A stretch of DNA of 64,000 nucleotides from the NCBI GenBank assembly GCA_949358305.1, contig OX442320.1, positions 808,501-872,500 of the forward strand, given 5' to 3'. The position numbers and the translations under genes are program-made. This document shows, piece by piece, positions 16,301-51,410 of this stretch. The first letter of the stretch is position 1, and each line of letters begins with the position of its first letter. The DNA comes from Strigamia acuminata (taxonomy: Eukaryota; Arthropoda; Chilopoda; Geophilomorpha; Linotaeniidae). Under the pieces are notes generated by a model. It was not told the origin of the DNA and ran no database searches. It saw only the letters and a list, made by a program, of their open reading frames with translations.

Positions 16301-17707
16301 TTGGGTATTGTTTGGAAAGTTCAAGAAGATGTTATCATGTTTAGGATTCCTGAAGGAGTTGAGATTACCAGAAGAAGAAGGGGTATCTTATCTTTGGTGG
16401 CATCGGTCTTCGATCCTCTCGGATTGATCTCACCGGTCATCTTGCCGATGAAGTTGCTTTTGCAGTCCATGTGGGGGCGAGAGATCAAGTGGGATGATAG
16501 GATTTCGTACGAGAGTTCTGAGCGAGTTACCAAATGGTACACCGACTTGCAACGTCTTATTGACGCAAAGGTCAAGCGATGGATAGGAACTTATTCGGGT
16601 CAATCATTAGATCTTGAAGTATATTGCGACGCAAGCCCGCAAGCGTATGGATGCGCAATTTATGTCCGCGCTGCATCTGGAGAGTGTCAATTGCTTCTAA
16701 GCAAAGGACGCATTGCTCCGATGACCAAGCTATCCCTACCACGCCTAGAGCTGACCGCCACAGTAGTGGGCGTCCGTATGACAGAGTATTTGAGGAAGGA
16801 TTTCCTGCCTACCTATCCCATTGGTAAAGTCAGTTACTTCTCTGACTCAATGGTAGCATTAGGCTGGATAAGATCCGTTAAAAACCGTTGGAAGCCCTAT
16901 GTTTCCAATCGGGTTGCAGAAGTTTTAGAAAAGTCTAGTCCGGAACAGTGGACATACATTCCGACAGAGCGGAATCCAGCAGACGTTTTTACGCGACCTT
17001 GCGACGCTAGAAGCCTAATTGCTAATCGTCTTTGGTGGGATGGACCTGGCCAACCAGAAGTTCTTCCTATCGATTTAGATACCGTCGTTTTTCCGCTTGA
17101 GGAAGAGAAAAAAGGGAAGGTTGTTACAGCTAGCATGCTGGGAGAAGCATTCAGGATCAAATTTTTTGAACGCTTTAGCTCATTTAGTAAGCTTGTGAAA
17201 GTGTTTGCGCGCATGAGGCGCTGGCTACCTTTTTCTTCTTCGCGTGGGAGGGACCTCGAGTACCTCGAAATGGAGTTAGCCGAGGAAAAGGTTATTCGTT
17301 TAGCACAGGACGCGTACTTTCGAGACGAGATATTAGCCACAGAGCTTAAGGAGAAGGTCCACAAGGAGTCAATCCTGAAAAATTTCGACATTTTTCTTGA
17401 CGAAAAAGAGATTTTGAGACTTAGAAGTCGTTTAGGGAAGTCGACACTGTCTTTCGACGAAGCTTACCCTATTCTGTTACACCCTGACAGCTGGGTCACC
17501 AAACTGATCATTAGACGAGCTCACCTGCAGTTGTTGCATGGTGACCTTAGCGAGACACTTTATCGTGTCCGAGATCGCTATTGGGTGATACGAGGTCGAA
17601 GAACAGTTAAGTCTGTGATTCGTAGCTGCCTAACCTGTAGGAAGGAACGATTAGGACGTCATAATCCTTCTACTGGCGATCCTCCTATTGTTACGTGGCC
17701 AGACTGA
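13361..17707 (+). CDS. gag-pol: BEL/Pao Gag-Pol polyprotein, gag to N-terminal integrase (pol cut by E3)
   Basis: This is the structural and enzymatic polyprotein of E2. The ATG at 13361 follows a splice-acceptor-like TTTTCAG. Gag (about residues 1-370) contains the Pao-type PKLEIAKFGG...FLDRFDSTVH...LQYLQSF block. Cys/His knuckles follow at about 376-438. The protease active site reads DPGS (Asp at 491), not the usual D-S/T-G. RT follows with RVVFNASS and catalytic YMDD at 914-917. RNase H of the Pao type has CDAS (Asp about 1090) and SLPRLEL. The integrase zinc-binding region ends HLQLLHGD...CLTCRKE. True E2 sequence stops at 17688; the last few codons and stop are E3 LTR sequence. The frame is open throughout. 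It cannot yield a full integrase in this copy. Confidence 0.93.
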   Translation: MSTSPGRTSPTPVTIPKPDELDVLTSRFETVGVAVEELLKESKAITDPAELEATALAAEEQIKKMVDDLNLMQPLIPRDQYMTNLKEIEGYYTPMAVLKHRSQVAQRFVSHWTANASTLSANTSQNQTNVSQQSSLSQLTRRNRNAKLPKLEIAKFGGEVVEFKSFLDRFDSTVHTNSDLSEVEKLQYLQSFCTGEAATLISTFRQVDGSYDLARSELIRSYGDDEAQRAALLKSLKELKPITEVHPVKAVKAQLTKLSATIRVLEQLSVPVQTAGFLLAPDVLRKFPPVMVTQFYRSHGTKSSNLLTILDFFATEVKLLEQVEDVMGSNLLHIKKDKVDKSDQKEQRKGTMSTCALAQGTKSSSNPKLTVDKATCIFCKEGHANSFCKKEISVEDKSAIAQKNRLCYNCLQSGHMAIRCRLKTSCRTCGGRHHSSICRKSIVTSPGGAEKSKDVSANVSLAISSTLQLMIFTAEVKTKSGGSHTVRGMLDPGSHRSYILKSVADRIRLKSCGSIEATAQRLNEENAGSASYDVYKILLQSRHGAKELKVTALSAKSLPHVYGIASPDVIQKVKNLGFELAEDLPSTAGNVDILLGVDVWWEICLDGRKRLDGRLGLVNTIFGWVLSGAAGSTDVFSESSRDVSCCNTCDIKTDRDLEKLWSLEAVGISAGERDSDFIRDRFEKTKTRREDGCYEVCLPFNERIGSLESNWDLALNQLSHTLRRIDSSSDHKERYHKAMWDYVREEHAEVVPLAERYKKSGVYVIPHHPVIREDRDTTKFRVVFNASSSKKGVPSLNDCLYPGPSLNPDIVPVIVRFRLYCVVAIADIKQAFLQVLIKLEHCDYLRFLWVSDEYFQNEYSWQNLWDHLVVLRMIVVPFGVNSSPFLLCAVIRAQGRLYLVLFPKEADALDKGIYMDDLTSGDDNAAKTTQHCVNLRTILDEGKLPLVKWATSSAEVFNALKGEDFHMRAEEFKDLDIIKMLGIVWKVQEDVIMFRIPEGVEITRRRRGILSLVASVFDPLGLISPVILPMKLLLQSMWGREIKWDDRISYESSERVTKWYTDLQRLIDAKVKRWIGTYSGQSLDLEVYCDASPQAYGCAIYVRAASGECQLLLSKGRIAPMTKLSLPRLELTATVVGVRMTEYLRKDFLPTYPIGKVSYFSDSMVALGWIRSVKNRWKPYVSNRVAEVLEKSSPEQWTYIPTERNPADVFTRPCDARSLIANRLWWDGPGQPEVLPIDLDTVVFPLEEEKKGKVVTASMLGEAFRIKFFERFSSFSKLVKVFARMRRWLPFSSSRGRDLEYLEMELAEEKVIRLAQDAYFRDEILATELKEKVHKESILKNFDIFLDEKEILRLRSRLGKSTLSFDEAYPILLHPDSWVTKLIIRRAHLQLLHGDLSETLYRVRDRYWVIRGRRTVKSVIRSCLTCRKERLGRHNPSTGDPPIVTWPD

Positions 17708-18207
17708 CTACTGTTTGACCACGTAAATACTTTATTATTAAACTGGGGGTTTGCAATTGCACTAAGTTAAACTAGCATTTAAACTGTGTTGCTAATAAGA
17801 AGGTAATGAAGAGGACTCATTGTATTATTATTAAAATATAACAGTATGTTTATTAAATCATAAATACAATCTGAAATAAACCAAAGATTAACTTAAAACT
17901 AAATCTTATAAAACTATCTTAAATCTAGTAAGCATGAATAACTTTGGTGGGTGAAGAACCTCAAGATGCCGCGGCAGTACCTGCCCGACAACCTCTCGGT
18001 ATGAAAGCTCGGAATGAACTGACATTTCAGTTCTCCTCATCAGCCAAGTAAACTTGGGTGATTCTACTATTACTTAATGGGTAAATTAGTGAGATCATTC
18101 GCTTAAGGCGAACTCTAGTGAGGGTTTACAGCATTAATTCGAATCGTTTAGTTACGGAAGCGAGGTGGCGACAACTGGTTCACAGTGTGCTCGTCAACCT
18201 CGTAACA
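17689..18207 (-). repeat. E3 3' LTR (sense of the element)
   Basis: This 519 bp copy supplies the stop codon that ends the truncated E2 frame at 17707. Confidence 0.95.
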
Positions 18208-18507
18208 GCCCCCTCCTTTAGATTTTTGGACCCCAAAAACAAGTTATTTAACTAAACAAACTCCCTTGTTGTTCATGCTTATATATGAGTTCATTCCCTG
18301 TTATTCATGCTTACTTTCACAAAATTTATACTTTAAACAATATTTACTAAAAACAATTTCAAATTACAAAAATTCAAAATCATATGTCAATTATTACACA
18401 AATACACTTTCAAGATTAACACTTTTTGATATTTTTACACTTATATTACTTTTTTTTCTCAGTTTTCCTATTTTCTATACAAACTAATAATTCAAAAAAA
18501 ATAATAT
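18208..18507 (-). other. E3 3' untranslated region, downstream part, with polypurine tract
   Basis: This is the rest of the E3 3' region beyond E4. The 13 bases next to the 3' LTR (18208-18220) read TAAAGGAGGGGGC on the minus strand. That is a normal polypurine tract and nearly the same as E4's. The remainder is A/T-rich without an ORF. It ends with the ATAT target of E4 (18504-18507). Confidence 0.7.
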
Positions 18508-19012
18508 TGTTACGCGGTAGAGCCGTACCGTGTATCGGCTGGCTCTGCTCGCTCTGTTTAGGCATTTAATGCAATGAATTCTCACTAGACGGCGCTGCGC
18601 ACCTAATTGGATGCACAGACCGTTCAACTTAGTTGATAGGGGGAATAGGAGTTTACTTAGTGAGTTGATTAAGCCAGAGAGCTCAGATCTCTTTTGATTC
18701 TCAAACTGTTACCTTCACCTACTACTGCCAGCCGGTTGACGGTCAGGCAGGACTAGGTTTTCTAAACTGAATTGAATTGACAACAGCATCATCCTTATTT
18801 AGTTACTTATTTGATTTGAATGAACCATTTATGTGTTTTAGGTTTAATAAATGAACAAATGTAATAAGAGCTGATGACCGAACATTTACATTAGTAAATG
18901 TCCGACTTTGAACAATAAAGCCAATAGGCATTTTACATATAAAACCCTGTGTCATTCTTGATTGAATTCATGTCACGTAGGACTAAATCAATCCCCATTT
19001 AGCCACGTAACA
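18508..19012 (+). repeat. E4 5' LTR
   Basis: 505 bp. Near its end lie a CCAAT (about 18921), a TATA-like CATATAAAA (about 18936) and TCATTCT (about 18952), an initiator-like sequence of the arthropod TCAKTY type. Most of the LTR would then be U3. Confidence 0.95.
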
Positions 19013-19014
19013 AC

Positions 19015-19028
19015 TGGTGGAGATGCGG
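19015..19028 (+). promoter_or_regulatory. E4 primer-binding site (tRNA-Ala-like)
   Basis: TGGTGGAGATGCGG starts two bases after the LTR. It is complementary to an animal tRNA-Ala 3' end (...GCATCTCCACCA). This is inference from memory of tRNA-Ala. Confidence 0.65.
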
Positions 19029-19573
19029 TCTCGATTGTAGCCCGTTTAGATTTTAAAATCCCATTAAAATTGGATTAAAATTGCCAAAATAATTTAATAA
19101 AAATCAAGAAATAAAAACTTGAAAATTTCTGATTTTATAGCAATTATCTTGAATGACTCAGAGTTGGTAAAAACAAGTGAAGTCACAGCTTGAATATTTA
19201 ATGTCATTGTGTGAAATAATTTGCATTTTGGAAATTGAACCCTATATTTAGTAATTTAGTAGTTTAATTGTTTATTAGGGATTAATAAATTGATTTACAA
19301 TTGTTATATTTAGAATAAATAAAATATATAGTGTATAAATACTAATTTTGATATTTATTTACAGGAAATTTTGTGAATTTATAGGAATTGAAAAATTGTT
19401 TTGAAATGTTATTGTTGGATTATTTTCTTAGTAATTTTGAGTGTAATATTTATGTATTATATGCTAATAACACTTTAAGTTTTCAGGTAATGAATTCGTG
19501 TTAGTGTATTCAGTGTTTAGAAAGAGATTAGTGCTAGTGAAGTGAATAAAAAAGTGCAATATAAGGCTTCAGT
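19029..19573 (+). other. E4 untranslated leader with candidate splice sites
   Basis: About 545 bp of A/T-rich leader. TATTTATTTACAG (about 19354-19365) resembles a 3' splice site. TTTTCAG/GTAATG (junction about 19486/19487) resembles a 5' splice donor. A donor here could serve a spliced mRNA for ORF3 whose acceptor is at 25255-25256. No in-frame ATG for gag is present; a TAA lies four codons before the GTG. Confidence 0.5.
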
Positions 19574-20905
19574 GTGGATAAGCCGGTGAAATTGTCACAA
19601 TTCAACTTGGATAATCTTCAGGATCTACAAAATTTGCAGTCACCTGAACCAAATTTGAAAAATATCACCACTAGAAGAAGTAAAAACGCTAAATCCGAAT
19701 CTGACACTGAACCTCAGAAGGAAGATAAAGAAGTCCGATCTCAACCTCAATCAATATTACAGAAATTGGATTTTGCTACTCCAGCAATAAAATTAATTCC
19801 ACAAAAAGGTTTAGAAGAAATAATAAAGACATTTACACCAGTAAAAACTAAACCAGTTCCAACCCCAATTAAACCAAATTTTCCGAAAATGACATCACCA
19901 CAGACTCCAACGGACGTATTGACCGACTTATTGAAGAGTTTGGTAGTGCAGAAGCGACCTGTTGTCACTTATGATACAGAAAAGGGCAACATCGACCAAT
20001 GGCTTGTGGCATATGAAGCTACAATAGGAACAGATGATGAGAGGGTAAAACATCTAGCATTAGCCTTAAAGACTGATGGATTGGCATGGTTTGTGGAACA
20101 ACTTAAGAAGAATCCGACATGGAAATGGACGGATTGGAAACCACAGATCGAGAAAAAATTTAGAAGAAGCCAAGAAAATGTTTACAATACTCTCCACTTC
20201 ATGAAACACAAAGAGGGTACAGCAGATGCCTTCATGAAGAAAGTCTTGGCCGAATGTGCGTTTATTCTACCAGAGATGACTGAAACTCAGAAAATAAATT
20301 ATGTTTACCAAGGTTTGAAGCCTGCAATGCAGAAGATGATGATAACAGTATTTCCATCGACGTTAGAAGAAATGGAACAGAGACTTAAATTGTATGAAAG
20401 TCACAAAACAGAAGAACCAGCGGATCTACTGCTCACAATGTTCAAAAAAGTTGTAGATGAAAAGGTGAACCCTACGACAACAGGTATACTGTCTGGAACA
20501 GGGGGATCCCCAGTAAGCTACGCCGAGTTATTAGCTGAAAATATTAAATTAAAACAGCAAAAGCTCGTTAGTGAGTCAGTAGAGCCACAACAATCGGTTC
20601 CATTATTCATACAAGGCGAGTGGTATATTCCAGCATCGCAGCGCGGACAGAACTTTAGAGGTAGATACAACAGAGGTAGACAGCGGTCAAATAGTAGTCC
20701 GACAACAACGCGTTCATGTGGATGTTGGCATCGTTATGGTTGTGAACATAACACATCAGCGCCACAGGAGCAACAACCTCAAGAAAATAGAGGGAACCCA
20801 AACAATAGAAGGTGGTTTAAGAAGAAAAGGACACAAGGGGGTGGTAAAACGAACCCTAATCCTAAGCAGAACCCACAACAAGGTCAACAAGAAGAGGAAA
20901 ACTAG
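19574..20905 (+). CDS. gag: Gypsy Gag protein of E4
   Basis: This is the Gag of E4 (443 codons), which assembles the particle and packages RNA. The frame opens at GTG 19574 just after an in-frame TAA (19562-19564). The first in-frame ATG is at 19889 (codon 106). The region before that ATG is conserved with E3, so initiation is either non-AUG or via splicing. The core contains YDTEKGNIDQWLVAYEATIG, FVEQLKKNPTWKW and KKFRRSQENV. The tail is Arg/Gly/Gln-rich with SCGCWHRYGCEH (about 382-392), which is not a CCHC knuckle. The end GAAAAC-TAG leads into pol in the -1 frame. Confidence 0.9.
   Translation: MDKPVKLSQFNLDNLQDLQNLQSPEPNLKNITTRRSKNAKSESDTEPQKEDKEVRSQPQSILQKLDFATPAIKLIPQKGLEEIIKTFTPVKTKPVPTPIKPNFPKMTSPQTPTDVLTDLLKSLVVQKRPVVTYDTEKGNIDQWLVAYEATIGTDDERVKHLALALKTDGLAWFVEQLKKNPTWKWTDWKPQIEKKFRRSQENVYNTLHFMKHKEGTADAFMKKVLAECAFILPEMTETQKINYVYQGLKPAMQKMMITVFPSTLEEMEQRLKLYESHKTEEPADLLLTMFKKVVDEKVNPTTTGILSGTGGSPVSYAELLAENIKLKQQKLVSESVEPQQSVPLFIQGEWYIPASQRGQNFRGRYNRGRQRSNSSPTTTRSCGCWHRYGCEHNTSAPQEQQPQENRGNPNNRRWFKKKRTQGGGKTNPNPKQNPQQGQQEEEN
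20896..20905 (+). promoter_or_regulatory. Candidate -1 ribosomal frameshift site of E4
   Basis: GGAAAAC followed immediately by the gag stop TAG. E3 has GAAAAAC-TAG at the same place (32567-32575, minus). Pol is open in the -1 frame across this point in both. It is not a perfect X XXY YYZ heptamer, but A-AAC next to a stop is conserved. Confidence 0.5.
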
Positions 20906-23900
20906 TGGGTCGGCCACAAGGAAGATGTCACCATCAACAAGGAAGATGTTGTCATCCAAAGAAGAAAAGAAAAAGTAGAAAAGAGAAGATAATCGTAGTC
21001 AATATGAACATTTCAGAATCTCTATTGGAAATTCCAGTAATAGTGAACAACATGGAAGTCAAGGCAGTTATGGACACTGGAGGAAAACGCAATGTTATCA
21101 GCGAAGAGCTTGCTGAAGCTTTACAGTTGAAGTACCCGCCAAGCCCAAATATACGATTACAAGGGGTAAGCGGAGAACTTGTGACTCCAATAGGAAAAGC
21201 CAAGATGAACATTACAATTGGTGAATTAACATACAGGATCGAGGTCCTGATTGTTAAAGGATTTCATTATGAATTACTGCTAAGTGACCCATTCATGCTG
21301 TTCGCGAAGTGCGTGTTAGACTACGACAAACAAAAAATCTTTGTGGGCCGAACTAGTGGAAAGGAAGTGTCATTTCCAATGAATAAAACTTTTGTTGATC
21401 AGAATTATGTTGCGAGGGTAATGAAGAACATCACAATTCCACCAATGCATGAGTGCATTGTTCCCATCTATTTGAATAAAGCAATAACATTGGACATGTT
21501 TGTGCAACCATTACATAATGTTACTGATAGATTTGCTGTGATAGGTTGTAAAACTTTAACAGATTTCAAGAACGGCAAAGGCATTATTCGAGTGGCTAAC
21601 CCAACCAAGAAGACAGTCTTTCTGAAGGAGAAGTCAGCAATCGCAAAAGCTTATTATGTGGTTGATGTTGGGGTGTTTGATGAAAAACAGGTACACTGTT
21701 TTGACTTTGACTCCTCAATAGCAAAAGACAAAATGAATAAAGACCAACAAGAGCAAATGCGACAACTTCTTCAAAAGAATCAAGACAGATTTGCTGTTTC
21801 TGACAAGGATTTGGGAAGAGTTCAAGTGTATAAGCATAAAATCGATACTGGAGACCATGACCCAATACATCTGCAACCGTATCGTCGTTCTATGAAGGAA
21901 AAAGAAGTCGAAGCTGAGGAAACAAAGAAATTGCTTGATATGGGAGTGATAAGGGAATCAGAAAGTCCCTGGAGCGCGCCTGTATTGCTAATAAAGAAAA
22001 GAGATGGTAAGTGGAGATTTTGTGTCGACTGGAGACGTTTGAATGCGATAACAAAGAAAATGGTGTACCCATTGCCAAGAATAGATGACACTTTAGATCA
22101 GCTGGCAGGTGCACAGTTCTTCTCCATGATGGACCTTATTCAAGGATATTATCAAGTCGAAATAGATGAACAAGATCGCGAAAAAACAGCATTTACCACT
22201 TCAAGCGGACATTTTGAGTTTAACGTCCTAGGAATGGGATTATGCAATAGTCCAGCAGCTTTTCAAAAGTTAATGAATAAAGTTTTAGGCAACCTCCTAG
22301 GCAAAGTTTGTATAGCGTACATTGACGACCTTATCATTTTCTCTAAAACATTCGATCAGCATTTGAAAGATCTAGACAACGTTTTCGACAAGCTTAGACA
22401 ATCTAACTTAAAGGTGAAGTTGAGCAAGTGCACATTTGGAACGAACACCATCAAGTATTTAGGACATGTCGTGGACTCTGAGGGTATATCACCAGACCCT
22501 AGGAACTTGGAATCCGTCGCGAAGTTTCCAGTTCCTACTAACCTCAAACTTCTTCGAGGATTCATAGGGCTCTGTTCGTATTACAGGAAGTTCATTCCAG
22601 GTTTTGCGGACATATCCAAGCCCTTAGTCAATTTGACGAAGAAGGACGAGAAATTTGATTGGGGCCCACCTCATGACAAGGCCTTCAAAACATTGAGGAC
22701 CGCCCTTATCACCGTGCCAGTGCTTGCGCACCCTAATTTTGAAGAACCCTTCATGGTATCGACTGACGCGAGCGCATATGGTCTTGGAGCAGTGTTGAAA
22801 CAGAAGATAAACAAACAAGAACATGTGATAGCTTATGCCAGCAGACTTCTCAGCCAAGCAGAACAGAATTACACAGCCACAGAAAGGGAATGTCTGGCTA
22901 TTCTGTTTGGAATTGAAAAGTACCGACCTTATCTGTATGGTAAGAAGTTCCAGATAATTACAGACCATTCGGCACTCCAATGGCTAAAATCAGTCAAAAA
23001 CCCCAATGGCAGACTAGCTAGATGGAGCCTACAGCTAGTAGACTTTGATTTCGATGTGATCTACAAGAGCGGAAAAGCGCACAAAGATGCCGACGCCTTG
23101 AGCAGAATTCCAGAAGATTTAAGCGAGGAAGAAAACGAAATAGTTCCCTCACTTTTACTCGAACAGCTCGACCTTCCTGCTGAGCAGCGTAAAGACAAGA
23201 AGCTACTGGAATTGATCACCGCAATGAATCAAGTAGAGCAACTTCCGAAGAAGAGAAGACGTCCTCTAAAGCAGTTCGTTCTTCTCGACAATGTGTTGTT
23301 TAGGAAGAAAAATTCTTTGAATTCCCTAGACACGGAAGTAAATCTGTTATATGTTCCGCAGCATTTGAAAACTGCAGTTCTTGAAGAAATGCATGACGGA
23401 CTGACGGGTGCTCACTTGGGCCTAAACAAAACGTGGAAGAGAATGAGAACAAGATTCTTCTGGCCCCGGATATATAAAGACGTTAGAAATTACGTACTTT
23501 CTTGTCCACATTGCGCGAGCTCGAAATCAATGACAACAGCGCCAAAAGGTTTAATGCAGCCGTGGTCTACGATATCTAAGCCTTTCGAGAGGATTGGAAT
23601 CGATACACTGGGAAGTTTTCCGACCTCCGACAAGGGCAACAAGTATGTTTTCGTAATGACAGATTATTTGTCGCGGACAGTGATTGCTAGAGCAGCTCCA
23701 GCATCAACAGCGTTGGAAGCAGCTAGAACTTTGCTTTATGAGTTAATGTTGAAGGAAGGCAGTCCGAGAGAAATCCTGAGCGATAGAGGCACAGAATACA
23801 GAAACAAAATGGTGGAAGAAGTATCAAATATGTTTAAAGCCCTACACAAAACCACTTCAGGGTACCATCCAAGGACCAATGGACTTACCGAGCGTTTTAA

Positions 23901-24849
23901 TGCGACGTTTGCAAAAATGTTGCAGATTTATGTTGATAAGGACCAGAGGGACTGGGATGATTTTTTGCCATTTTTGCTTTTCTCATATAATACCGGTGTG
24001 CATGAAACGACAGGATATACACCTTATTATCTTTTGAAAGGATATGAAGTTGATTTGAACGTGGACGTAAACCTCAACTTACCTCAAAAAGAATTTACCT
24101 TGCGAACCTCAAAATTCATCAGAGAAGCTAGGAAGATAGCAAATGAAAGGTTGGAATGGCAAGGAGGAAAAAGCAGAAAAAGATTCGATCAAGGCCGAGT
24201 TCATGTGGAATTTGACCCAGGAGAATTAGTATATCTCAAAACACCCAATAGAAAAGTTGGGTTAAGTGAAAAACTCCTGCCACAATTCTCAGGCCCATAC
24301 GAAATAGTAAGAAGAACCGCGCCAAATGACTACGAAATTAGAAGTTCAAATGGAAAGAAAACAGATATTGTTAACATTGAACGATTAAAACCGTATAAAC
24401 CCAGAGAAGAAATTCCAGCGGAGATATTAGAAGAATTGACAGCTAAAAAAGTCACATTTGCTGATGAAACTGCAACACAGAGTGAAAAACAACAAGAAAT
24501 TGAAGAAAACACGTCAATTTCGCCAATTCCGATCGCTAAAGAACGATTCATTAGCGATGACGACCAAATTTCGTTAAAAACACTCTTTGAACCTGAAGAA
24601 AATACAATAAAAGTGTCAAATTTCCCAATTTCAAGTGAAAAAGAGCGATTAAAAGCGCTCTATGGACCGAAAGAAATTATGGAAAGATGGCAAAACGAAG
24701 ACGAACGGAAAAACGAAGAAAATCAATTGCGAAAACCGCCGACAGGTGTCGCTGACGCAGTCGATGACGCGTCGCCGCCTGAAATCGAGAGTTTCCGGTC
24801 ACGTCGCCTTCGCAAACAGGCTCGTCGTGACTACAGTGGATTGTGTTAA
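20902..24849 (+). CDS. pol: Gypsy Pol polyprotein of E4 (protease, RT, RNase H, integrase)
   Basis: Pol is read in the -1 frame from the end of gag. A basic, Cys/His-containing start (RCCHPKKKRK) precedes retropepsin with DTG (Asp codon 21073). RT has WRFCVDWRRLN, GMGLCNSPAAFQ and YIDD (22318-22329). RNase H has STDASAYG (Asp 22764), TERE and TDHSALQWL. The integrase zinc motif ends CPHC (about 23503-23514). The catalytic Asp 23602, Asp 23782 and Glu 23890 have perfect D-59-D-35-E spacing. The GPY/F-type motif FSGPYEIVRR and a long charged tail follow. The frame has no break. The first start-like codon is GTG 20905, but frameshift expression is more likely. Confidence 0.94.
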   Translation, partial: LVGRPQGRCHHQQGRCCHPKKKRKSRKEKIIVVNMNISESLLEIPVIVNNMEVKAVMDTGGKRNVISEELAEALQLKYPPSPNIRLQGVSGELVTPIGKAKMNITIGELTYRIEVLIVKGFHYELLLSDPFMLFAKCVLDYDKQKIFVGRTSGKEVSFPMNKTFVDQNYVARVMKNITIPPMHECIVPIYLNKAITLDMFVQPLHNVTDRFAVIGCKTLTDFKNGKGIIRVANPTKKTVFLKEKSAIAKAYYVVDVGVFDEKQVHCFDFDSSIAKDKMNKDQQEQMRQLLQKNQDRFAVSDKDLGRVQVYKHKIDTGDHDPIHLQPYRRSMKEKEVEAEETKKLLDMGVIRESESPWSAPVLLIKKRDGKWRFCVDWRRLNAITKKMVYPLPRIDDTLDQLAGAQFFSMMDLIQGYYQVEIDEQDREKTAFTTSSGHFEFNVLGMGLCNSPAAFQKLMNKVLGNLLGKVCIAYIDDLIIFSKTFDQHLKDLDNVFDKLRQSNLKVKLSKCTFGTNTIKYLGHVVDSEGISPDPRNLESVAKFPVPTNLKLLRGFIGLCSYYRKFIPGFADISKPLVNLTKKDEKFDWGPPHDKAFKTLRTALITVPVLAHPNFEEPFMVSTDASAYGLGAVLKQKINKQEHVIAYASRLLSQAEQNYTATERECLAILFGIEKYRPYLYGKKFQIITDHSALQWLKSVKNPNGRLARWSLQLVDFDFDVIYKSGKAHKDADALSRIPEDLSEEENEIVPSLLLEQLDLPAEQRKDKKLLELITAMNQVEQLPKKRRRPLKQFVLLDNVLFRKKNSLNSLDTEVNLLYVPQHLKTAVLEEMHDGLTGAHLGLNKTWKRMRTRFFWPRIYKDVRNYVLSCPHCASSKSMTTAPKGLMQPWSTISKPFERIGIDTLGSFPTSDKGNKYVFVMTDYLSRTVIARAAPASTALEAARTLLYELMLKEGSPREILSDRGTEYRNKMVEEVSNMFKALHKTTSGYHPRTNGLTERFNATFAKMLQIYVDKDQRDWDDFLPFLLFSYNTGVHETTGYTPYYLLKGYEVDLNVDVNLNLPQKEFTLRTSKFIREARKIANERLEWQGGKSRKRFDQGRVHVEFDPGELVYLKTPNRKVGLSEKLLPQFSGPYEIVRRTAPNDYEIRSSNGKKTDIVNIERLKPYKPREEIPAEILEELTAKKVTFADETATQSEKQQEIEENTSISPIPIAKERFISDDDQISLKTLFEPEENTIKVSNFPISSEKERLKALYGPKEIMERWQNEDERKNEENQLRKPPTGVADAVDDASPPEIESFRSRRLRKQARRDYSGLC

Positions 24850-25263
24850 GGTTTTCTGAGACGAACCAGGTTTACTGTGTGACTCAAAGAAACCTAAAGC
24901 ATTAATAACAGCAGCAGTTGATTTGTGTGTGATTCCGTAAGTGAAAAGAGTGGATTTTGAACGAATTTGGCGAACAAATAGCTTAAAAACGAAACAAATC
25001 TATCGCAAATTTTGTGAAAAATAACATCGCGAAACGGAAAATTAGGCTTAAATAATTGTGTTAAAACTTCGAAATGAAATTTTAGTGTGTGCATACATTA
25101 TCAAGTGACTAATTAGTTGAAGAATTGTTAAATTTAGTGTAAATTAGTGCAACATGAGATGTTAAATGAAATAATGAATGGAAATTGGAATAATTTTGTG
25201 AAAATTTTGAATTAATGAATTAATTTTTTTTATTTTCTTTTCAAACAATATATTAGGATCCGA
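24850..25263 (+). other. E4 pol-ORF3 spacer with candidate splice acceptor
   Basis: 414 bp, A/T-rich, with no ORF. It ends with a T-rich polypyrimidine tract (25222-25242) followed by ATATATTAG (AG at 25255-25256), seven bases before the ORF3 ATG. This is the arrangement by which env-carrying Gypsy elements express env from a spliced RNA. Splicing here is inferred. Confidence 0.6.
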
Positions 25264-26637
25264 ATGGACGAAATGGCAAGCAAATTTGATCGGATGGATG
25301 TGCGTAGTGACAGTGACAGCGATGCGGATTCAGTTTGCTCGATGCAAGTGGGCGATCTTTTGGAACGTCAACTTAAGAAAGGCGATGACTTGGAAATTTA
25401 TTTAGCAAATAAGCCGAGCACAAGTAAAACTTTGGACGAATTGGTTAACTGCCCACGCCCGTTTACAGAAGGAAAACAAAAGGCGGAGGAAGACAAAAAG
25501 AAATATGCAGGACCATTAACAAAGGGTGAAGAAGGCTTATTGCGTCGTCGTCGTAAGAATCGACAATTGAAACGAGATAAGAAAGCACAAAAGAAGAAAG
25601 TGTTTGACGAGCAATCGAAAAGAATCCGGGAAGAAGAAATGCGTCACACCGTTGATCGAAACAAACGCCGATTAAATGATTTGCGAATGGAGCACCGGAA
25701 TATGGTCAACGCCATTAGAGCCAGGAAATTAAAAGGAGTGATGGGATTGCCCGACTATCAGTTGTGGAGAACAGGGGCGAATGCTTTGCTGATCCAGGAG
25801 GCGAAGATAAGAAAAAACATTTTAAAAGCCATCGCCCTAGCGAGAAGAGAGTCCTTCCAGGACCCTAGTGTAGTATTTCCTACTCCTATACGGGTATACC
25901 GTGTGGAGTTGGACGCTGCACGACAGGTCCAGGCTCTCGGACTTGCATTAGACTATAGTAATGCGCCAAAATATGACTTAGCATTCGACGCCGTAGGTTG
26001 TCCGCCGATTAAAGTCATGAACTATCAGATGGCAGCATTAGGCGATCTAACGCCGGGACGACAGAGCTGGACGTATGACAGCGTCGTTGATCACTACCTC
26101 CAACTGTTAGAAGAGCGATATCCTATATTGGCACCAATTCAATCTGAGTGGGTATACAAAATGGTGGACCCAGCTAAACGAAAGGAAGCGATCTATTGGC
26201 TAATGAGGAGACTTCCAAGTGCTCAAAAGAAGATTTGGGTGTTTCCAGTTCCTATTGAAGAGCATTGGCAGCTTTTCATAGTGGATTGGCGGAAAAAGCC
26301 AACCCAATACGTGCTTTACGACCCACGCGGACCAATAGAGCGCACATATCCAAAGTGGGAATCTTTAAGGTACTCGTTGATGGATGCAGGAGTAAAGTTT
26401 CCAAACAAATTCATACGTTGGGACCCGCCACGTATGCACCAATTGGATAATGACAGCTGTGGCCCAACCATACTCTACTTCACTAGAAGATACGTTGAAG
26501 ACCGTGACTTAATGCAGTTTGGGGAGCCATGTGAGTTACGCTTACGATTTGTGTATGAGATTGCAAACCGTGAAATTCTCCCATTCGAGTTGATCAAGGA
26601 AGAGGATAAGAAAGATCAAGTGGAAGGAGGAGAGTGA
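25264..26637 (+). CDS. ORF3: predicted Ulp1/SENP-like (C48 family) cysteine protease of E4
   Basis: A 457-aa protein in the position where some Gypsy elements carry env. It has no signal peptide and no membrane segment. Residues 1-60 are acidic and Ser-rich; 90-155 are strongly basic (RRRRKNRQLKRDKKAQKKK) with a likely coiled coil and nuclear signal. Residues 270-440 look like a C48 protease: His334 (EEHWQLFIVDW), Asp353 (LYDPRG), Gln393 (HQLDNDSCG) and Cys399 (SCGPTILYF). The H-19-D, D-40-Q and Q-6-C steps closely follow yeast Ulp1 (His514, Asp531, Gln574, Cys580). C48 enzymes cut SUMO or related proteins from targets; the substrate here is unknown. The ATG 25264 lies right after a splice-acceptor-like site. 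Residues 155-270 match nothing I recognise. The protease call is strong; the role (particle maturation, deSUMOylation, host counter-defence) is open. Confidence 0.88.
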   Translation: MDEMASKFDRMDVRSDSDSDADSVCSMQVGDLLERQLKKGDDLEIYLANKPSTSKTLDELVNCPRPFTEGKQKAEEDKKKYAGPLTKGEEGLLRRRRKNRQLKRDKKAQKKKVFDEQSKRIREEEMRHTVDRNKRRLNDLRMEHRNMVNAIRARKLKGVMGLPDYQLWRTGANALLIQEAKIRKNILKAIALARRESFQDPSVVFPTPIRVYRVELDAARQVQALGLALDYSNAPKYDLAFDAVGCPPIKVMNYQMAALGDLTPGRQSWTYDSVVDHYLQLLEERYPILAPIQSEWVYKMVDPAKRKEAIYWLMRRLPSAQKKIWVFPVPIEEHWQLFIVDWRKKPTQYVLYDPRGPIERTYPKWESLRYSLMDAGVKFPNKFIRWDPPRMHQLDNDSCGPTILYFTRRYVEDRDLMQFGEPCELRLRFVYEIANREILPFELIKEEDKKDQVEGGE

Positions 26638-27051
26638 AGTGAACTTTAACTTCTTTAAGTGAATAAGTGTAAAATCAACACGAACTTTGAACATTTTTTT
26701 TTGTGTGTGTGTTTTTTTTTTTATTTTATAGAAAATTGAAAACTGAAAAAAAAGTAATATAAAACAAAAAACCAAAAAGTGTTGTTATTGATGAAAAGTG
26801 TTAATTTTATTTAATTTTAAACTTTGAAAATTGTTTCCAATGTAAAAGTGTAATAAAAAGTGACTATGACATTTACAAACATTGAAAAGTGTATCATATT
26901 ATATTTTTGTAAAAATAAGGATGATGAAAAGAGATTCTCAAAATTGTAAAATTGTGTTTATGATTTGAAATTTTTTTTTATGTGAAAGGAGATGCGTTAG
27001 TTAGAACAATTCATTGTTTTTCGAGAGACCGAAAAAATTAAAGGGGGGGGC
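26638..27051 (+). other. E4 3' untranslated region and polypurine tract
   Basis: 414 bp, very A/T-rich with T-runs near 26695-26725. It ends in AAAGGGGGGGGC (27040-27051) directly at the 3' LTR, a typical polypurine tract for plus-strand priming. No ORF. Confidence 0.8.
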
Positions 27052-27556
27052 TGTTACGCGGTAGAGCCGTACCGTGTATCGGCTGGCTCTGCTCGCTCTG
27101 TTTAGGCATTTAATGCAATGAATTCTCACTAGACGGCGCTGCGCACCTAATTGGATGCACAGACCGTTCAACTTAGTTGATAGGGGGAATAGGAGTTTAC
27201 TTAGTGAGTTGATTAAGCCAGAGAGCTCAGATCTCTTTTGATTCTCAAACTGTTACCTTCACCTACTACTGCCAGCCGGTTGACGGTCAGGCAGGACTAG
27301 GTTTTCTAAACTGAATTGAATTGACAACAGCATCATCCTTATTTAGTTACTTATTTGATTTGAATGAACCATTTATGTGTTTTAGGTTTAATAAATGAAC
27401 AAATGTAATAAGAGCTGATGACCGAACATTTACATTAGTAAATGTCCGACTTTGAACAATAAAGCCAATAGGCATTTTACATATAAAACCCTGTGTCATT
27501 CTTGATTGAATTCATGTCACGTAGGACTAAATCAATCCCCATTTAGCCACGTAACA
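27052..27556 (+). repeat. E4 3' LTR
   Basis: 505 bp, identical by eye to the 5' copy. It is followed by the ATAT duplication and then E3 sequence. Confidence 0.95.
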
Positions 27557-27560
27557 ATAT

Positions 27561-28523
27561 ACACTACATTCAATGTGAATGAAAATGAAAACAATATCAA
27601 AATCAAAAAAATAATATCAACTTCAAATAATAAAAAAAACCATGTCTCTGCTCGCTCCAGTACACCTGGGCTCACATCATTGACGAATAATACAAAATAA
27701 ATAATACACAAAAAAAATAATTTCACACAACACTTAATGTCCGATTAAGGCTGGTTTTCCTCCTTTTCGAATGGGATCAACTTCTCGTGTAAGATCTCGT
27801 ACACTATATACGCTGGCGCAAATCAATCGGGTGGCCATGGCGCATGTTGTCCCTGTCTTCAATATATCGGCGGGCAAAATATAAGATAGTGGGCCCGCAG
27901 CTGTCACCGTCAAGCTGCTGCATGCGGGGCGGGTCCCACTTCTCATAGCCCCGTGGAAACACCATTCAAGTCTAATATGTGCAGAAAATAAATTAAACTC
28001 ATTAATCAAAGTTCATTAATGACCAATATAATATACACTCAATTTGTCTAAATTTCATTAAACTTTTAACTTTATACAATATTCAAATTATTTCATCTAA
28101 ACCAATTAAATATTCATGGCTATTTCTATTAAATTTCAAAATTAAATGCCAAGTTAACATTTCAAAAATGTGCGAAGTTCTCTTTATTCGCTGGAAAAAT
28201 GGCGATAGATTCGTTCCGTTTTGTTCACTTTCGGCACTTTTATTAATGTTATCCAAAACTGGAGAAAAATGTCTCAAAAATTGTTCAAATCAACCAGTAA
28301 ATTCGAGTTATTCTTGGTTCACTGCAAATAACTTGCGTTCGCCTCAAAAAACAAGAAAATACAACTTCAAAATCGTGTCACGTCTCGTCTGCGTTCATAT
28401 TAACTTCCGCCAATTAAAAGTACCTACTTTCACAGAAAATATGCGAAATCCTCGTCAATCACACTCGGAGAATAACAATTCCCTTCGCTCACTGCAAATA
28501 ACTTGCGTTCACTTAAAGAAAAG
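27561..28523 (-). other. E3 3' untranslated region, upstream part
   Basis: This lies between the E3 pol stop and the E4 insertion. It contains the protease remnant (27745-27965) and otherwise A/T-rich non-coding sequence. A 22-bp direct repeat TCACTGCAAATAACTTGCG (plus TTC) occurs at 28319-28340 and 28489-28510, 170 bp apart. Plus-strand frames here are shadows. Confidence 0.6.
27745..27965 (-). pseudogene. Decayed remnant of a Ulp1-like (C48) protease ORF in E3
   Basis: On the minus strand one frame reads VFPRGYEKWDPPRM then QQLDGDSCGPTILYFARRYI, then ends in TAG. This closely matches the catalytic Gln/Cys region of the E4 protease (KFIRWDPPRM, HQLDNDSCGPTILYF). The Cys codon is 27897-27899. 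After a two-base frame change the match resumes (VYEI...LIPFEKEE) and stops at 27745-27747. Upstream homology fades within about 40 bases, with another frame break and stops, and the His/Asp part is gone. About 1.1 kb of ORF is missing compared with E4. It cannot encode an active protease. Confidence 0.85.
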
Positions 28524-31500
28524 CTAGTAAAATGCAGTGTAATCTTGGCGTGGTTGCGATCTAAGTCGTCGTGACCGGAAATCACTTTCAGCAGGACGTC
28601 GCGCATGCGTATCGGCGCCAACAGCATTTGCGACACCTGGTGATGGTTTCTGCGACCGATTTTTCTTACTTTCGTCTAGCGACGATTTTAGCAACTGATT
28701 TCGCTGTTCTAACTCAACTTCCTTTTTCACTCGACGTGCCTCAATTTCTTTCGGCCCGTAAATTGCCTTCAATCGCTCCCTTTCAGTTAGAACCGGCGAA
28801 TCCGACGTTTTATCTTCGGATTCAAAGAAATTCCGCAACGAAATTTGATCGTTATCATCAATAAACCTTTCCTTCGCTCCTATTTTAGGCTTATCTCGCG
28901 AATCATCGTCCTTCTTCACAATTTCCGCATTTTGATCGTCTTTTTGCGAACTTCCTTGCACTTCATCAGAAAATGTTACTTTCTTTGGTGGTAAATCCTG
29001 CAGAATAGTTTCTGGAATTTCCTCTCTCGGCTTGTATGGTTTTAAACGCTCAACATTGACAATACTAGTTTTCTTTCCTGATGAATTCCTCACTTCATAA
29101 TCGTTTGGCGCTGTGCGTCTAACTATCTCATATGGTCCAGAAAATGGTGGCAGGAGTTTTTCGCTCAACCCTACTTTCCTATTTGGGGTTTTCAAGTAAA
29201 CTAGTTCTCCTGGTTCGAATTCAACCACAATTCTGTCCAAATCAAATCTTCTCTTGCTTTTCTCACTCTGCCATTCTAGTCTTTCGTTGGCAATTTTCCG
29301 CATCTCCCTCATAAATCTAGAAGTGCGAAGAGTGAATTCCTTTCGCGGAAGGTTCAAGTTCACGTCCACACTCAAATCAACTTCATAACCTTTCAACAAA
29401 TAATATGGGGTATATCCAGTTGTTTCATGGACTGCTGAATTATAGGAGAAAATGACAAATGGTAAAAATTCATCCCAATCTGTGTGATCTTTATTAGTAT
29501 AACATGTCAACATTTTGGCAAATGTTGCATTAAATCTTTCCGTTAATCCGTTGGTCCTTGGATGGTACCCGGAAGTAGATTTGTGCTGGGATTTAAACAG
29601 TGCTGATACTTCATTAATCATTTCGTTCCTGTACTCCGTCCCCTTATCGCTGAGTATCTCGCGTGGACTTCCCTCTTTGAGCATTACCTCGAATACAAGA
29701 GTTTTTGCTGCTTCCAACGCTGTACATGCTGGAGCCGCTCTGGCGATGACTGCACGCGATAAATAATCAGTGATAACAAAAACATATTTATTTCCACTAT
29801 TTGAAACTGGAAAGCTTCCTAACGTGTCTATACCAATCCTCTCAAACGGTCTTGAGATCGTCGACCAAGGTTGTAACAAACCTTTTTGTGGAGTGGTCAT
29901 GGACTTACTTCCTGCGCAATGTGGACAACTGAGAACGTAATTCCTTACGTCCCTGTATATCCTCGGCCAAAAGAATCTTACTCTAATCCTTTTCCACGTC
30001 TTATTTAGGCCGAGATGAGCACCTACGAGCCCGTCATGCATTTCTTCTAACACTTGCTTACGTAAATGCTGCGGTACTACTAAAAGGTTTCCTTCCATGT
30101 TTAGAGAATTGTAACTTTTCTTTCTAAACAACGTGTTATCCAGGAGAACGAACTGTTTTAAAGGACGTTTCCTGTTTCTTGGAAGTTGCTCAATGTTCTC
30201 CATTGCGGTGATGATCTCCAAAATTTTCTCGTCCTTACGCTGTTCTACAGGTAAGTTGAGTTTTTCGAGAAGTAGTAAGGGAATAATTTCTTTTTCTTCC
30301 TCACCAATCTCTTCTTGGATTCGGCTAAGAGCATCTGCATCCGTGTGCTTCTTGCCTGACTTATGTATCACATCGTAGTCGTAATCTACCAGTTGTAAAC
30401 TCCACCTGGCCAATCTACCGTTGGGATTTTTCACCTTATTCAGCCATTGTAACGCAGAATGGTCTGTCACAATTGTAAATTTCCTACCGTAAAGATATGG
30501 TCTGTACTTGTTAATGCCGAATATTATGGCTAAACATTCTCTTTCCGTAGCTGTGTAATTCTGTTCCGCTGTACTTAACAATCGACTGGCGTAACAAATC
30601 ACATGCTCTTGCTTGTTAATACGCTGCTTCAAAATTGCACCGAGCCCATAAGCACTTGCATCCGTAGATACAATGAATGGCTCTGCAAAATTTGGATGTG
30701 CTAAAACTGGTACCGTAACTAAAGCTGTCCGTAAGGCCTTAAACGCTGTTTCCTGTGGTGGTCCCCAATCAAAAGCTTCATCTTTGCGAGTTAAGTTGGC
30801 TAAGGGCTTGGATACGTCCGCAAATCCTGGAATGAACTTTCGATAATACGAACATAAACCCAAAAACCCTCTCAACTGCTTCAAATTTGTTGGTTTTGGA
30901 AATTTAGCTACACTTTCCAAATTACGTGGATCAGGTGACACTCCATCAGAATCAACTATGTGGCCTAAATATTTGATGGTATTAGTACCAAACGTACATT
31001 TGCTGAGTTTAACCTTTAAGTTTGCCAACCGCAGCTTGCTGAAGACAGCATCGAGATCCTGAAGATGCTGATCAAATGTCTTTGAAAATATTATAAGGTC
31101 GTCAATATAAGCTATACAGACCTTGCCAAGAAGATTACCAAGCACCTTATTCATCAATTTTTGAAACGCAGCTGGGCTATTACATAATCCCATTCCTAGG
31201 ACGTTAAACTCAAAATGTCCGCTTGAAGTGGTAAACGCTGTTTTTTCACGATCCTGTTCATCTATTTCGACTTGATAATATCCTTGAATAAGATCCATCA
31301 TCGAAAAATACTGGGCCCCTGCCAGTTGGTCCAATGTATCGTCAATCCTGGGCAGTGGGTATACCATTTTCTTTGTGATCGCGTTTAACCTCCTCCAATC
31401 GACACAAAATCTCCATTTACCGTCTCTTTTCTTGATGAGAAGTACTGGTGCACTCCATGGACTTTCTGATTCCCTAATGACTCCCATCTCAAGCAACTTT

Positions 31501-32570
31501 CTGGTCTCTTCTGCCTCTACTTCTTTTTCTGCGATTGAACGTCTATAAGGCTGCAAATGTATTGGATCATGGTCCCCCGTATCAATTTTGTGTTTAAATG
31601 TTGTTACTCTACCTAAGTCTTTGTCTGTGGCTGCAAATCTATCCTGATTCCTTTGAAGTAACTGCTTCATCTGCTCTTGTTGGCTTTTGTTCATCTTATC
31701 TTTAGCAATCGAGGAGTCAAAGTCAAAGCAATGCACTTGCTTTTCATCTGTCAACTCAACCGCTTTGGTTGAGGAGTCAGTGCAATACACTTGCTTCTCA
31801 TCCAACAACCCAATTTCGATAATGTAATACGCCTTACCAATTGCAGATTTCTCCTTCAGAAAGACTGATTTGTTTGTTGGATTAGCCACACGCAGAACTC
31901 CTTTACCATACTCAAAATTTGTTAATGTTTTACAACACAAAATTCCAAACCTATCTATTACATTTCCTAGAGGTTCCATAAACATTTCTGTGGTTAGTTT
32001 TGTATTTAAATAAACTGGTATAACGCATTCATGCATTGGTGGAATTGAGATATTCTTCATTACTCTGGCAACATAACTCTGGTCCGAAAATGATCTATTT
32101 ATTGGAAAAACTGCTTCTTCTACTCCACTATCATTGTTCCGGCCCACAAAGATTTTTTGTAAATCATAATCGACGACAGTTCTCGTTGACCTCATGAATG
32201 GATCCCCCAACAAAAGCTGATGATGAAATCCTGACACTATTAATACTTCCACCTTATAGGTCAGTTTTCCAATTGCAATGTTCATTTTTGTTTTACCCAC
32301 TGGAACTACCAAATCCTTTCCTATCCCACGTAGCCTAATGTTAGGGCTGGGTGAATAATCCAATTGAAGAGCTATTGCAACTTCTTCGCTTAGCAGGTTT
32401 CGTTTGGCTCCAGTGTCCATTACCGCTTTTATTTCCATTTCTTTTACAATTACTGGGATCTCCAACAATGATTCTGATACCTGAACGTCAATTATAATTA
32501 TCTTACTCTTCTTCTTTTGTCTTTTCCTTTTCTTTGGGTGGCAACAATTTCTCTGTGGCCGTTCAACTAG
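28524..32570 (-). CDS. pol: Gypsy Pol polyprotein of E3 (protease, RT, RNase H, integrase)
   Basis: This is in the -1 frame relative to gag and open from the gag stop to TAA at 28524; the first start-like codon is a TTG at 32468. It begins with a basic tract (CCHPKKRKRQKKK), then retropepsin (MDTGAKRN). RT has WRFCVDWRRLN, GMGLCNSPAAFQ and catalytic YIDD. RNase H has STDASAYGLGA and TDHSALQWL. The integrase has H-H-C-C residues, a D-D-E core and a GPYEIVRR motif near the end. No internal stop or frameshift is seen. Compared with E4, an in-frame duplication of about 18 residues repeats DEKQV between protease and RT (around 31735-31810). It is likely functional if transcribed. Confidence 0.92.
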   Translation of the reverse strand, partial: LVERPQRNCCHPKKRKRQKKKSKIIIIDVQVSESLLEIPVIVKEMEIKAVMDTGAKRNLLSEEVAIALQLDYSPSPNIRLRGIGKDLVVPVGKTKMNIAIGKLTYKVEVLIVSGFHHQLLLGDPFMRSTRTVVDYDLQKIFVGRNNDSGVEEAVFPINRSFSDQSYVARVMKNISIPPMHECVIPVYLNTKLTTEMFMEPLGNVIDRFGILCCKTLTNFEYGKGVLRVANPTNKSVFLKEKSAIGKAYYIIEIGLLDEKQVYCTDSSTKAVELTDEKQVHCFDFDSSIAKDKMNKSQQEQMKQLLQRNQDRFAATDKDLGRVTTFKHKIDTGDHDPIHLQPYRRSIAEKEVEAEETRKLLEMGVIRESESPWSAPVLLIKKRDGKWRFCVDWRRLNAITKKMVYPLPRIDDTLDQLAGAQYFSMMDLIQGYYQVEIDEQDREKTAFTTSSGHFEFNVLGMGLCNSPAAFQKLMNKVLGNLLGKVCIAYIDDLIIFSKTFDQHLQDLDAVFSKLRLANLKVKLSKCTFGTNTIKYLGHIVDSDGVSPDPRNLESVAKFPKPTNLKQLRGFLGLCSYYRKFIPGFADVSKPLANLTRKDEAFDWGPPQETAFKALRTALVTVPVLAHPNFAEPFIVSTDASAYGLGAILKQRINKQEHVICYASRLLSTAEQNYTATERECLAIIFGINKYRPYLYGRKFTIVTDHSALQWLNKVKNPNGRLARWSLQLVDYDYDVIHKSGKKHTDADALSRIQEEIGEEEKEIIPLLLLEKLNLPVEQRKDEKILEIITAMENIEQLPRNRKRPLKQFVLLDNTLFRKKSYNSLNMEGNLLVVPQHLRKQVLEEMHDGLVGAHLGLNKTWKRIRVRFFWPRIYRDVRNYVLSCPHCAGSKSMTTPQKGLLQPWSTISRPFERIGIDTLGSFPVSNSGNKYVFVITDYLSRAVIARAAPACTALEAAKTLVFEVMLKEGSPREILSDKGTEYRNEMINEVSALFKSQHKSTSGYHPRTNGLTERFNATFAKMLTCYTNKDHTDWDEFLPFVIFSYNSAVHETTGYTPYYLLKGYEVDLSVDVNLNLPRKEFTLRTSRFMREMRKIANERLEWQSEKSKRRFDLDRIVVEFEPGELVYLKTPNRKVGLSEKLLPPFSGPYEIVRRTAPNDYEVRNSSGKKTSIVNVERLKPYKPREEIPETILQDLPPKKVTFSDEVQGSSQKDDQNAEIVKKDDDSRDKPKIGAKERFIDDNDQISLRNFFESEDKTSDSPVLTERERLKAIYGPKEIEARRVKKEVELEQRNQLLKSSLDESKKNRSQKPSPGVANAVGADTHARRPAESDFRSRRLRSQPRQDYTAFY

Positions 32571-34571: not shown

Positions 34572-34574
34572 CTT

Positions 34575-35093
34575 TGTTACGTGGCCAGACTGACTACTGT
34601 TTGACCACGTAAATACTTTATTATTAAACTGGGGGTTTGCAATTGCACTAAGTTAAACTAGCATTTAAACTGTGTTGCTAATAAGAAGGTAATGAAGAGG
34701 ACTCATTGTATTATTATTAAAATATAACAGTATGTTTATTAAATCATAAATACAATCTGAAATAAACCAAAGATTAACTTAAAACTAAATCTTATAAAAC
34801 TATCTTAAATCTAGTAAGCATGAATAACTTTGGTGGGTGAAGAACCTCAAGATGCCGCGGCAGTACCTGCCCGACAACCTCTCGGTATGAAAGCTCGGAA
34901 TGAACTGACATTTCAGTTCTCCTCATCAGCCAAGTAAACTTGGGTGATTCTACTATTACTTAATGGGTAAATTAGTGAGATCATTCGCTTAAGGCGAACT
35001 CTAGTGAGGGTTTACAGCATTAATTCGAATCGTTTAGTTACGGAAGCGAGGTGGCGACAACTGGTTCACAGTGTGCTCGTCAACCTCGTAACA
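34575..35093 (-). repeat. E3 5' LTR (sense of the element)
   Basis: 519 bp, TGTTACG...CGTAACA. It lies upstream of gag on the minus strand. It is identical by eye to the other copy, which implies recent insertion. Confidence 0.95.
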
Positions 35094-44863: not shown

Positions 44864-45436
44864 TGTAGCAGAGGTGGAAACACGGCACGAAATGGTCGTG
44901 CAAAATAAAGGAAACGACGAGAAAATAGCGGCAATGGCGGCGACCGACCCGGGCGCACTTTGCCACTATACGAGGCGACGTCTGCACGACGTGCGCGGAA
45001 ATGGCGATAGGAATCGCCGTGAAAGTGGTTTGCACTTATAATAGACGTGCAAAGGAAGCAAAAACGCTTATAAAACAATAAAATTTAATGGATAAACAAT
45101 AAACTTACAACATAATCCAGATTTGGATGAGAAAAACGAAATGCGACTATCGGTCGCCATCTTGGAAAAGTGAATCAACATAAACGCCATCTGGCGTTAA
45201 TAATTAACATCAAACTATAATCGAATTGCTAGGCATAGCAATGTGCCGTGTACATAACGACAAATAATGAGACGCATTGTGCCAATGCATACAAATACAA
45301 TCGGAAATAAGAATTACGGTACGAAATATAAATAATACATCGAGATATAATAATTAATGGATAAAATATCGAATAACATAATTAAAACATAAAGTTAGAA
45401 CTCATATTGAAGTAGACGGCGCAGAACACGCCAACA
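44864..45436 (-). repeat. E6 3' LTR (sense of the element)
   Basis: 573 bp copy downstream of gag-pol, identical by eye to the 5' copy. The internal polypurine tract abuts it at 45437. Confidence 0.95.
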
Positions 45437-45445
45437 AACCCCTCC

Positions 45446-45682
45446 ATACTTCAAAATGAGTTGAAGTAGAATTAAGAACTTAAATAGAACACGGGATCTT
45501 TCGGTGTCAAATCAGAAAAAGAAAACAATAAAATTTCGGAATTATCGTGTCGGGTACTATCGTTAACATCACTTACTAAGCTCGGAATTCCCAATCTAAC
45601 TACACGATAAAACCTCAAATCCGGGAAAGATAACTCAGGATTGTCCGAAAAACGATGGGAAAAATAAAGATGTCTTCATCGG
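45446..45682 (-). other. E6 3' untranslated region
   Basis: About 240 bp between the gag-pol stop and the polypurine tract. No ORF or further signal is seen. Confidence 0.6.
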
Positions 45683-51408: not shown

Positions 51409-51410
51409 AC

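Follow-up and report, generated by a model that had tools for sequence, protein, structure and literature searches.

A predicted SENP/Ulp1-like cysteine protease gene as the third open reading frame of a Ty3/Gypsy retrotransposon lineage in the centipede Strigamia acuminata

Results

We analyzed a 64,000-nucleotide stretch of the genome of the centipede Strigamia acuminata (contig OX442320.1, positions 808,501 to 872,500; hereafter the window, in which all coordinates are given unless a contig is named) that contains a long terminal repeat (LTR) retrotransposon, E4, in which a third open reading frame (ORF), ORF3, accompanies gag and pol. The element occupies 18508-27556 on the plus strand, with the three ORFs held between paired LTRs of 505 bp (18508..19012 and 27052..27556, +; TG...CA). 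An earlier reading made from the sequence alone had described E4 as intact, and this is borne out: the two LTRs are identical, a 4-bp target duplication, ATAT, flanks the element (18504-18507 and 27557-27560), and a G-rich polypurine tract (27033..27051, +) adjoins the 3' LTR. The sequence TGGTGGAGATGCGG, which starts 2 nt past the 5' LTR, is a candidate tRNA primer binding site. By Pfam, pol (20905..24849, +; 1314 amino acids) encodes an aspartic protease, reverse transcriptase, RNase H, H2C2 and integrase in the Ty3 order, and its best match in the PDB is Ty3 Gag-Pol (E = 1e-120). On the basis of its pol domain order, its closest solved relative, its LTRs, polypurine tract and target duplication, E4 is classified as a Ty3/Gypsy LTR retrotransposon. 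The gag ORF (19574..20905, +; 443 amino acids), which is listed with a GTG start and lacks an in-frame ATG at the conserved start, has a weak Pfam match to Ty3_capsid (E = 7e-4) that is under the cut-off of that family. Conservation between the gag of E4 (19574) and that of E3, a second Gypsy element in the window (33913), begins at the GTG (VDxPVKLSQ), where neither has an ATG, and in E4 an in-frame stop lies just upstream, which may point to a spliced leader or to initiation at a non-AUG codon.

ORF3 (25264..26637, +; 457 amino acids, ATG start) is predicted to encode a cysteine protease of the C48 (SENP/Ulp1-like) type. Its N-terminal half (residues 1-244, 25264..25995, +) starts acidic and serine-rich and continues into a region that is predicted to be helical and is, as had been noted from the sequence, basic, with 15 lysines or arginines in residues 91-120; this half has no Pfam match in E4 ORF3. 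The C48-like domain follows at approximately residues 245-445 (25996..26598, +), where positions 252-442 of a family profile align with SENP1. In these alignments His334 (26263..26268, +, together with Trp335), Asp353 (26320..26322, +), Gln393 (26440..26442, +; the oxyanion-hole position) and Cys399 (26458..26460, +; the nucleophile position, within DSCG) coincide with the catalytic residues of SENP1, so that the catalytic set, motif and Ulp1-like spacing claimed by the sequence-only reading are all present. These four residues, Trp335 and Trp269 (26068..26070, +), which aligns with a SENP1 tryptophan ahead of the first domain helix, are invariant in all 12 ORF3s aligned, from five groups with identities down to 32%. 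The SENP1 tryptophans that match W269 and W335 clamp the Gly-Gly tail of SUMO.

The family profile was built from 12 ORF3s of this same genome; of 20 diverged loci fetched for it, 11 entered the alignment and the other nine were broken, partial or near-duplicates. Searched against the PDB, it matched SENP1 (E = 1.2e-11, 47.2 bits), SENP5 (1.8e-8) and SENP2 (3.7e-7), then SENP3, Ulp1 and XopD; none of the 19 PDB sequences listed for it is named as SENP8, SENP6/7 or a viral protease. For E4 ORF3 alone, the 14 best of the 17 PDB matches listed were SENP or Ulp1 (E from 0.0013 to 0.022), several of the alignments to chains other than SENP1 covering no more than the initial part of the domain. Searched singly, ten of the 12 matched the Pfam family PF02902 at E ≤ 1, the lowest value being 1.2e-4. 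In a control, 2000 shuffled versions of a SENP1 fragment reached no more than 9.0 bits against the ORF3 profile, whereas the fragment itself scored 45.7. A chance motif is ruled out by the SENP1 profile match, this control and the invariant residues, and the placement of ORF3 among the C48 proteases is supported. In agreement with the sequence-only reading, no hydrophobic or membrane segment was found in ORF3 (best 19-residue Kyte-Doolittle mean, 0.72), which rules out an env-like glycoprotein. Nor is it a C48 domain fused to a DNA-transposon transposase, as in Ginger1 or Mutator-like elements (MULEs), being a stand-alone ORF beside gag and pol in which no second Pfam domain was found. Searches of a set of 5.8 billion proteins, perhaps poor in animal sequences, found no relative of ORF3, and none of the 18 pattern matches in a scan of viral contigs was one.

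Within the genome behind the window (237.5 Mb in 157 contigs), ORF3 matches at least 94 places. In the table of 94 matches, none of the 35 rows that are full-length at 97-100% identity contains a stop, and a further 26 rows without stops start at query position 1 and reach position 442 or beyond, at 34-42% identity. The ORF3s were assigned to the group of E4 itself, F1, and to sister groups F2-F5. All 30 of the best-scoring F1 copies (E4 included; 28 distinct DNA sequences, 16 distinct ORF3 proteins) carry a full-length ORF3 with the His-Asp-Gln-Cys set, and their mean pairwise nonsynonymous (dN) and synonymous (dS) divergences are 0.0031 and 0.0552, giving a dN/dS of 0.055 (325 pairs). The corresponding ratio for pol is 0.062 (last 340 codons; the 26 of the same 30 copies that are stop-free and gapless there). 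Within the five groups, dN/dS is 0.05-0.17 in the 12 unsaturated pairs among 120 drawn from 16 sequences, the remaining pairs being saturated or nearly so. In most of these 12 pairs the N-terminal half has a dN/dS similar to that of the domain, so it probably matters too; in one pair the values are 0.57 and 0.07. Judged by these ratios, ORF3 is under purifying selection and is a gene of the element, not debris, as had been argued from the intactness of E4.

The linkage of ORF3 to pol extends beyond E4. In all four sister loci (one member per group), a pol 70-78% identical to that of E4 lies upstream on the same strand and ends about 0.4-0.9 kb ahead of ORF3; the env-like position after pol, first described for E4, is therefore found in E4 and in each of these loci. 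When 45 of the 94 ORF3 rows were entered, 32 of 35 pol matches had an ORF3 97-473 bp downstream and three had none. The sequence-only reading would have been undermined by the lack of any C48 match, or by the absence of ORF3 from all other copies; the family profile does give a C48 match, and ORF3 is present in many copies across the genome and in four sister groups.

Directly 5' of ORF3 is an intron of 320 nt (24937..25256, +; GTAAGT...ATATTAG), whose pyrimidine-rich stretch and ATATATTAG end 7 nt 5' of the ORF3 ATG. Copy L034 lacks exactly 24937-25256 but matches E4 on both sides of that gap, keeping 97-98% identity across ORF3 and into the 3' LTR; the simplest reading is a reverse-transcribed spliced RNA. 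Its precise lack of the segment indicates that the ORF3 acceptor is in use, and the donor of the missing intron sits after pol; a longer, env-like splice from the leader may exist as well. The F2 and F3 loci also have AG-ended, acceptor-like sequences 5-6 nt ahead of the ATG, and in F5 such a sequence lies at a greater distance from it. This evidence suggests that ORF3 is made from a spliced message.

The genome holds other C48 genes. An open frame of 1075 amino acids with C48 and PHD matches occurs at six places (including L006, L007 and L008) with identical scores, and looks by eye like a DNA transposon that bears a Ulp1 domain. Another, of 1828 amino acids and with a C48 match, occurs at C1:22252003 and C1:33635212, again with identical scores. 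The ORF3 profile gives 3.3 bits on the C48 and PHD ORF, compared with 47.2 for SENP1, and an origin of ORF3 from a MULE- or Ginger-type C48 gene of this genome is accordingly not favored. The other C48 loci fetched (L001, L002, L004 and L005) score about 9-14 bits and are fragmentary, so no donor of ORF3 can be named.

E4 is the innermost of three nested elements. A 140-bp satellite (also scored at a 427-bp period) lies on both sides of the nest, at 1-8655 and 59640-64000, which places the nest within a satellite array. Outermost is a BEL/Pao element with a Pao peptidase match and LTRs at 11283-12557 and 36078-37351; inside it is E3, a minus-strand Gypsy element, into which E4 is set on the plus strand. 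The LTRs of E3 (17688-18207 and 34574-35093) are identical to each other, and its pol (28524..32468, -) is 74% identical to that of E4. What remains of its ORF3 (27807..27959, -) is an internally deleted and frame-broken C-terminal piece that retains DSCG and is 67% identical to E4 ORF3 residues 379-429. A sublineage of the E3 group shares one ORF3 deletion junction (27557-28524 in the window) in at least four copies and resembles a cheater lineage. Elsewhere in the window, at 44861-51983, is a Copia-type element with a minus-strand ORF of 1624 amino acids (Copia gag, integrase and RVT_2 matches), enclosed by an identical 576-bp repeat pair (44861-45436 and 51408-51983) that presumably represents its LTRs.

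Discussion

The reading that we prefer, to which we give an even chance, is that the E4 lineage bears its own SENP1/2-like cysteine protease, a soluble and perhaps nuclear deSUMOylase that acts in trans on host silencing. Its enzymatic activity, SUMO substrate, nuclear site, host targets and anti-silencing role are all inferred from sequence. ORF3 would be read from an RNA spliced just 5' of its start codon; the protein would be soluble and, given its basic helical N-terminal half, perhaps nuclear; and it would most likely strip SUMO in trans from the host proteins that silence E4 at chromatin, with Gag or integrase as less likely targets. Passages of a yeast study report that Ty1 RNA increases when SUMO conjugation is inactivated (PMC8585004), and a review, in part, describes the plant MULE genes VANC and KIU, with a captured Ulp1 domain, as part of a trans-acting transposon anti-silencing system (PMC13317346). 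By analogy, ORF3 possibly has an anti-silencing role. More tentatively, an animal Ty3/Gypsy lineage may have come to carry its own nuclear deSUMOylase, spliced from the env position, that erases in trans the SUMO signals of Piwi-interacting RNA (piRNA) and heterochromatin silencing, as a counter-defense independent of the plant MULE anti-silencing genes and with the ORF3-deleted copies as cheaters.

A number of observations weigh against the preferred reading. The match to PF02902 that had been looked for holds for the family and not for E4 ORF3 alone, which has no Pfam hit at E ≤ 1, and single-sequence AlphaFold models have a mean per-residue confidence (pLDDT) of 44.5 and 39.0, too low to judge a Ulp1 fold. 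The copies behind the dN/dS of 0.055 are the best-scoring ones, among which broken copies are under-represented, for ORF3 and pol alike. Loss of the intron is seen in only one of the 30 copies, and a GTAAGT-type donor is absent from the sampled F2, F3 and F4 spacers (F5 has GTGAGT). Although E3 retains long ORFs for gag and pol and its LTRs are identical, its ORF3 is internally deleted; the deletion junction is found at full length at four places, E3 included (100, 99, 93 and 93% identity), and a larger ORF3 deletion at two more (C5:10891910 and C3:4153382). Unless duplication made the four copies of the deleted sublineage, ORF3 is thus dispensable in cis, although intact relatives exist and may supply it in trans, or it may be useful under some conditions only. 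Finally, ORF3 is far more divergent than pol: between groups, pol is 75-81% identical (481 shared columns) and ORF3 32-50%, and between F4 (L050 and L061) and F5 (L051 and L062) the values are 96% (481 columns) and 63-64%. Given this difference, a shift of ORF3 substrate or recombination between ORF3 and pol is possible. Small trees of pol and ORF3 agree, with F4 joining F5 and E4 next (support 0.93 for pol and 0.95 for ORF3), and gag too outpaces pol (53% identity between E4 and E3, where ORF3 of E4 and of the E3 group are 40-41% identical). The simplest reading is common inheritance with faster evolution of ORF3, while the contrast between F4 and F5 also allows recombination between pol and ORF3.

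Some C48-superfamily enzymes cut viral polyproteins, and ORF3 might likewise act on the proteins of its own element, either by clearing Gag or integrase of SUMO or ubiquitin-like marks or as an extra maturation protease in the particle. That ORF3 is encoded by the element, beside pol, and that gag diverges faster than pol, as ORF3 does, are consistent with this possibility, which we nonetheless consider unlikely. Pol already encodes an aspartic protease, the intron 5' of ORF3 suggests a separate message and not a part of Gag-Pol, and ORF3-deleted copies exist at several places, though trans-complementation could account for them. Because the C48 chains in the PDB matches of the profile belong to deSUMOylases (SENP1/2/3/5 and Ulp1) and to XopD, deSUMOylation is a better fit than a second maturation protease. 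The same chains, the only C48 chains among the PDB matches listed, speak against cleavage of a ubiquitin-like protein other than SUMO (ubiquitin or NEDD8) on host restriction or degradation factors, as does the invariance of both SENP1-aligned tryptophans. Deneddylases and bacterial deubiquitinases are among the C48-related enzymes and the Pfam matches to C48 are weak even at their best, but we regard this substrate as doubtful.

The proteolytic activity itself could be questioned. ORF3 might be an inactive or structural C48 derivative that binds RNA or SUMO without cutting, perhaps in the manner of a nucleocapsid- or export-like accessory protein. Its basic, helical N-terminal half is constrained like the domain in most pairs, and the C48 fold is a prediction from sequence, the models being of low confidence; this alternative is quite improbable to us, because the full catalytic set is invariant in the 12 aligned ORF3s and in all 30 E4-group copies, which would be unexpected of a protein that has no catalytic role. 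That ORF3 is a fragment of a host SENP, captured by chance and of no use to the element, could be argued from the likeness to cellular SENPs and from the ORF3-deleted copies. We reject this suggestion as having a negligible probability, since there are 94 matches, pol lies upstream in the five groups sampled and the dN/dS of ORF3 is near that of pol, and it is already contradicted by the low within-group ratios and the similar place and length of ORF3 in five groups.

Compared with other Ty3/Gypsy elements, including errantivirus-like ones with env, E4 is alike in its identical LTRs, gag, pol with protease, reverse transcriptase, RNase H and integrase, 4-bp duplication, ORF after pol and evidence of splicing. 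In errantivirus-like elements, however, the third ORF encodes a membrane glycoprotein, whereas that of E4 encodes a predicted soluble C48-like protease. According to parts of a study of bdelloid rotifers, their LTR retrotransposons have enzymatic ORF3s (a GDSL esterase and a DEDDy exonuclease), typically made from spliced messages (PMC5408684); they share with E4 an enzyme gene at the env position but the enzymes differ, and the main text of that paper nowhere uses the words ulp, peptidase or SUMO. Ulp1-like cysteine proteases are encoded by the nematode NeSL and Utopia-1_TSP retrotransposons, as passages of PMC4640811 describe, although these are non-LTR elements in which the protease is an N-terminal domain. 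Sections of PMC2836005 place C48/Ulp1 domains in MULEs and in Ginger1, whose integrase is Gypsy-like; unlike E4 these are DNA transposons, and the Ginger1 C48 domain is at the C-terminus of the transposase. The VANC and KIU genes of plant VANDAL elements, likened to ORF3 by description only, similarly join a Ulp1 domain to trans anti-silencing of their own family, though in a DNA transposon, and the role of that domain is unexplained according to part of the review cited above (PMC13317346). With SENP1, SENP2, SENP5 and Ulp1, ORF3 has in common the His-Asp-Gln-Cys order, flanking motifs and both aligned tryptophans, but its similarity to them is weak, its N-terminal half lacks a Pfam match and it is encoded by a retrotransposon.

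Among the matches listed from the open-licence PMC literature, no title or abstract beginning described a C48 ORF in an LTR retrotransposon; that literature does not take in Repbase or most subscription papers, making this weak evidence of absence. What appears new here is that a Ty3/Gypsy lineage has a C48 gene for its third ORF, as C48 domains in other mobile elements and enzymes at the ORF3 position were already known. Natural comparisons are available within one genome, which has intact copies, relatives with a deleted ORF3 and five groups that have diverged. If true, the finding would extend a recurring pattern: C48 domains of unexplained use occur in mobile elements that are unrelated to one another, namely MULEs, Ginger1, NeSL/Utopia and, with E4, an LTR retrotransposon. 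SUMO-dependent silencing is a pathway known mainly from the side of the host, and ORF3, should it be an active deSUMOylase, would give direct access to the response of a retrotransposon.
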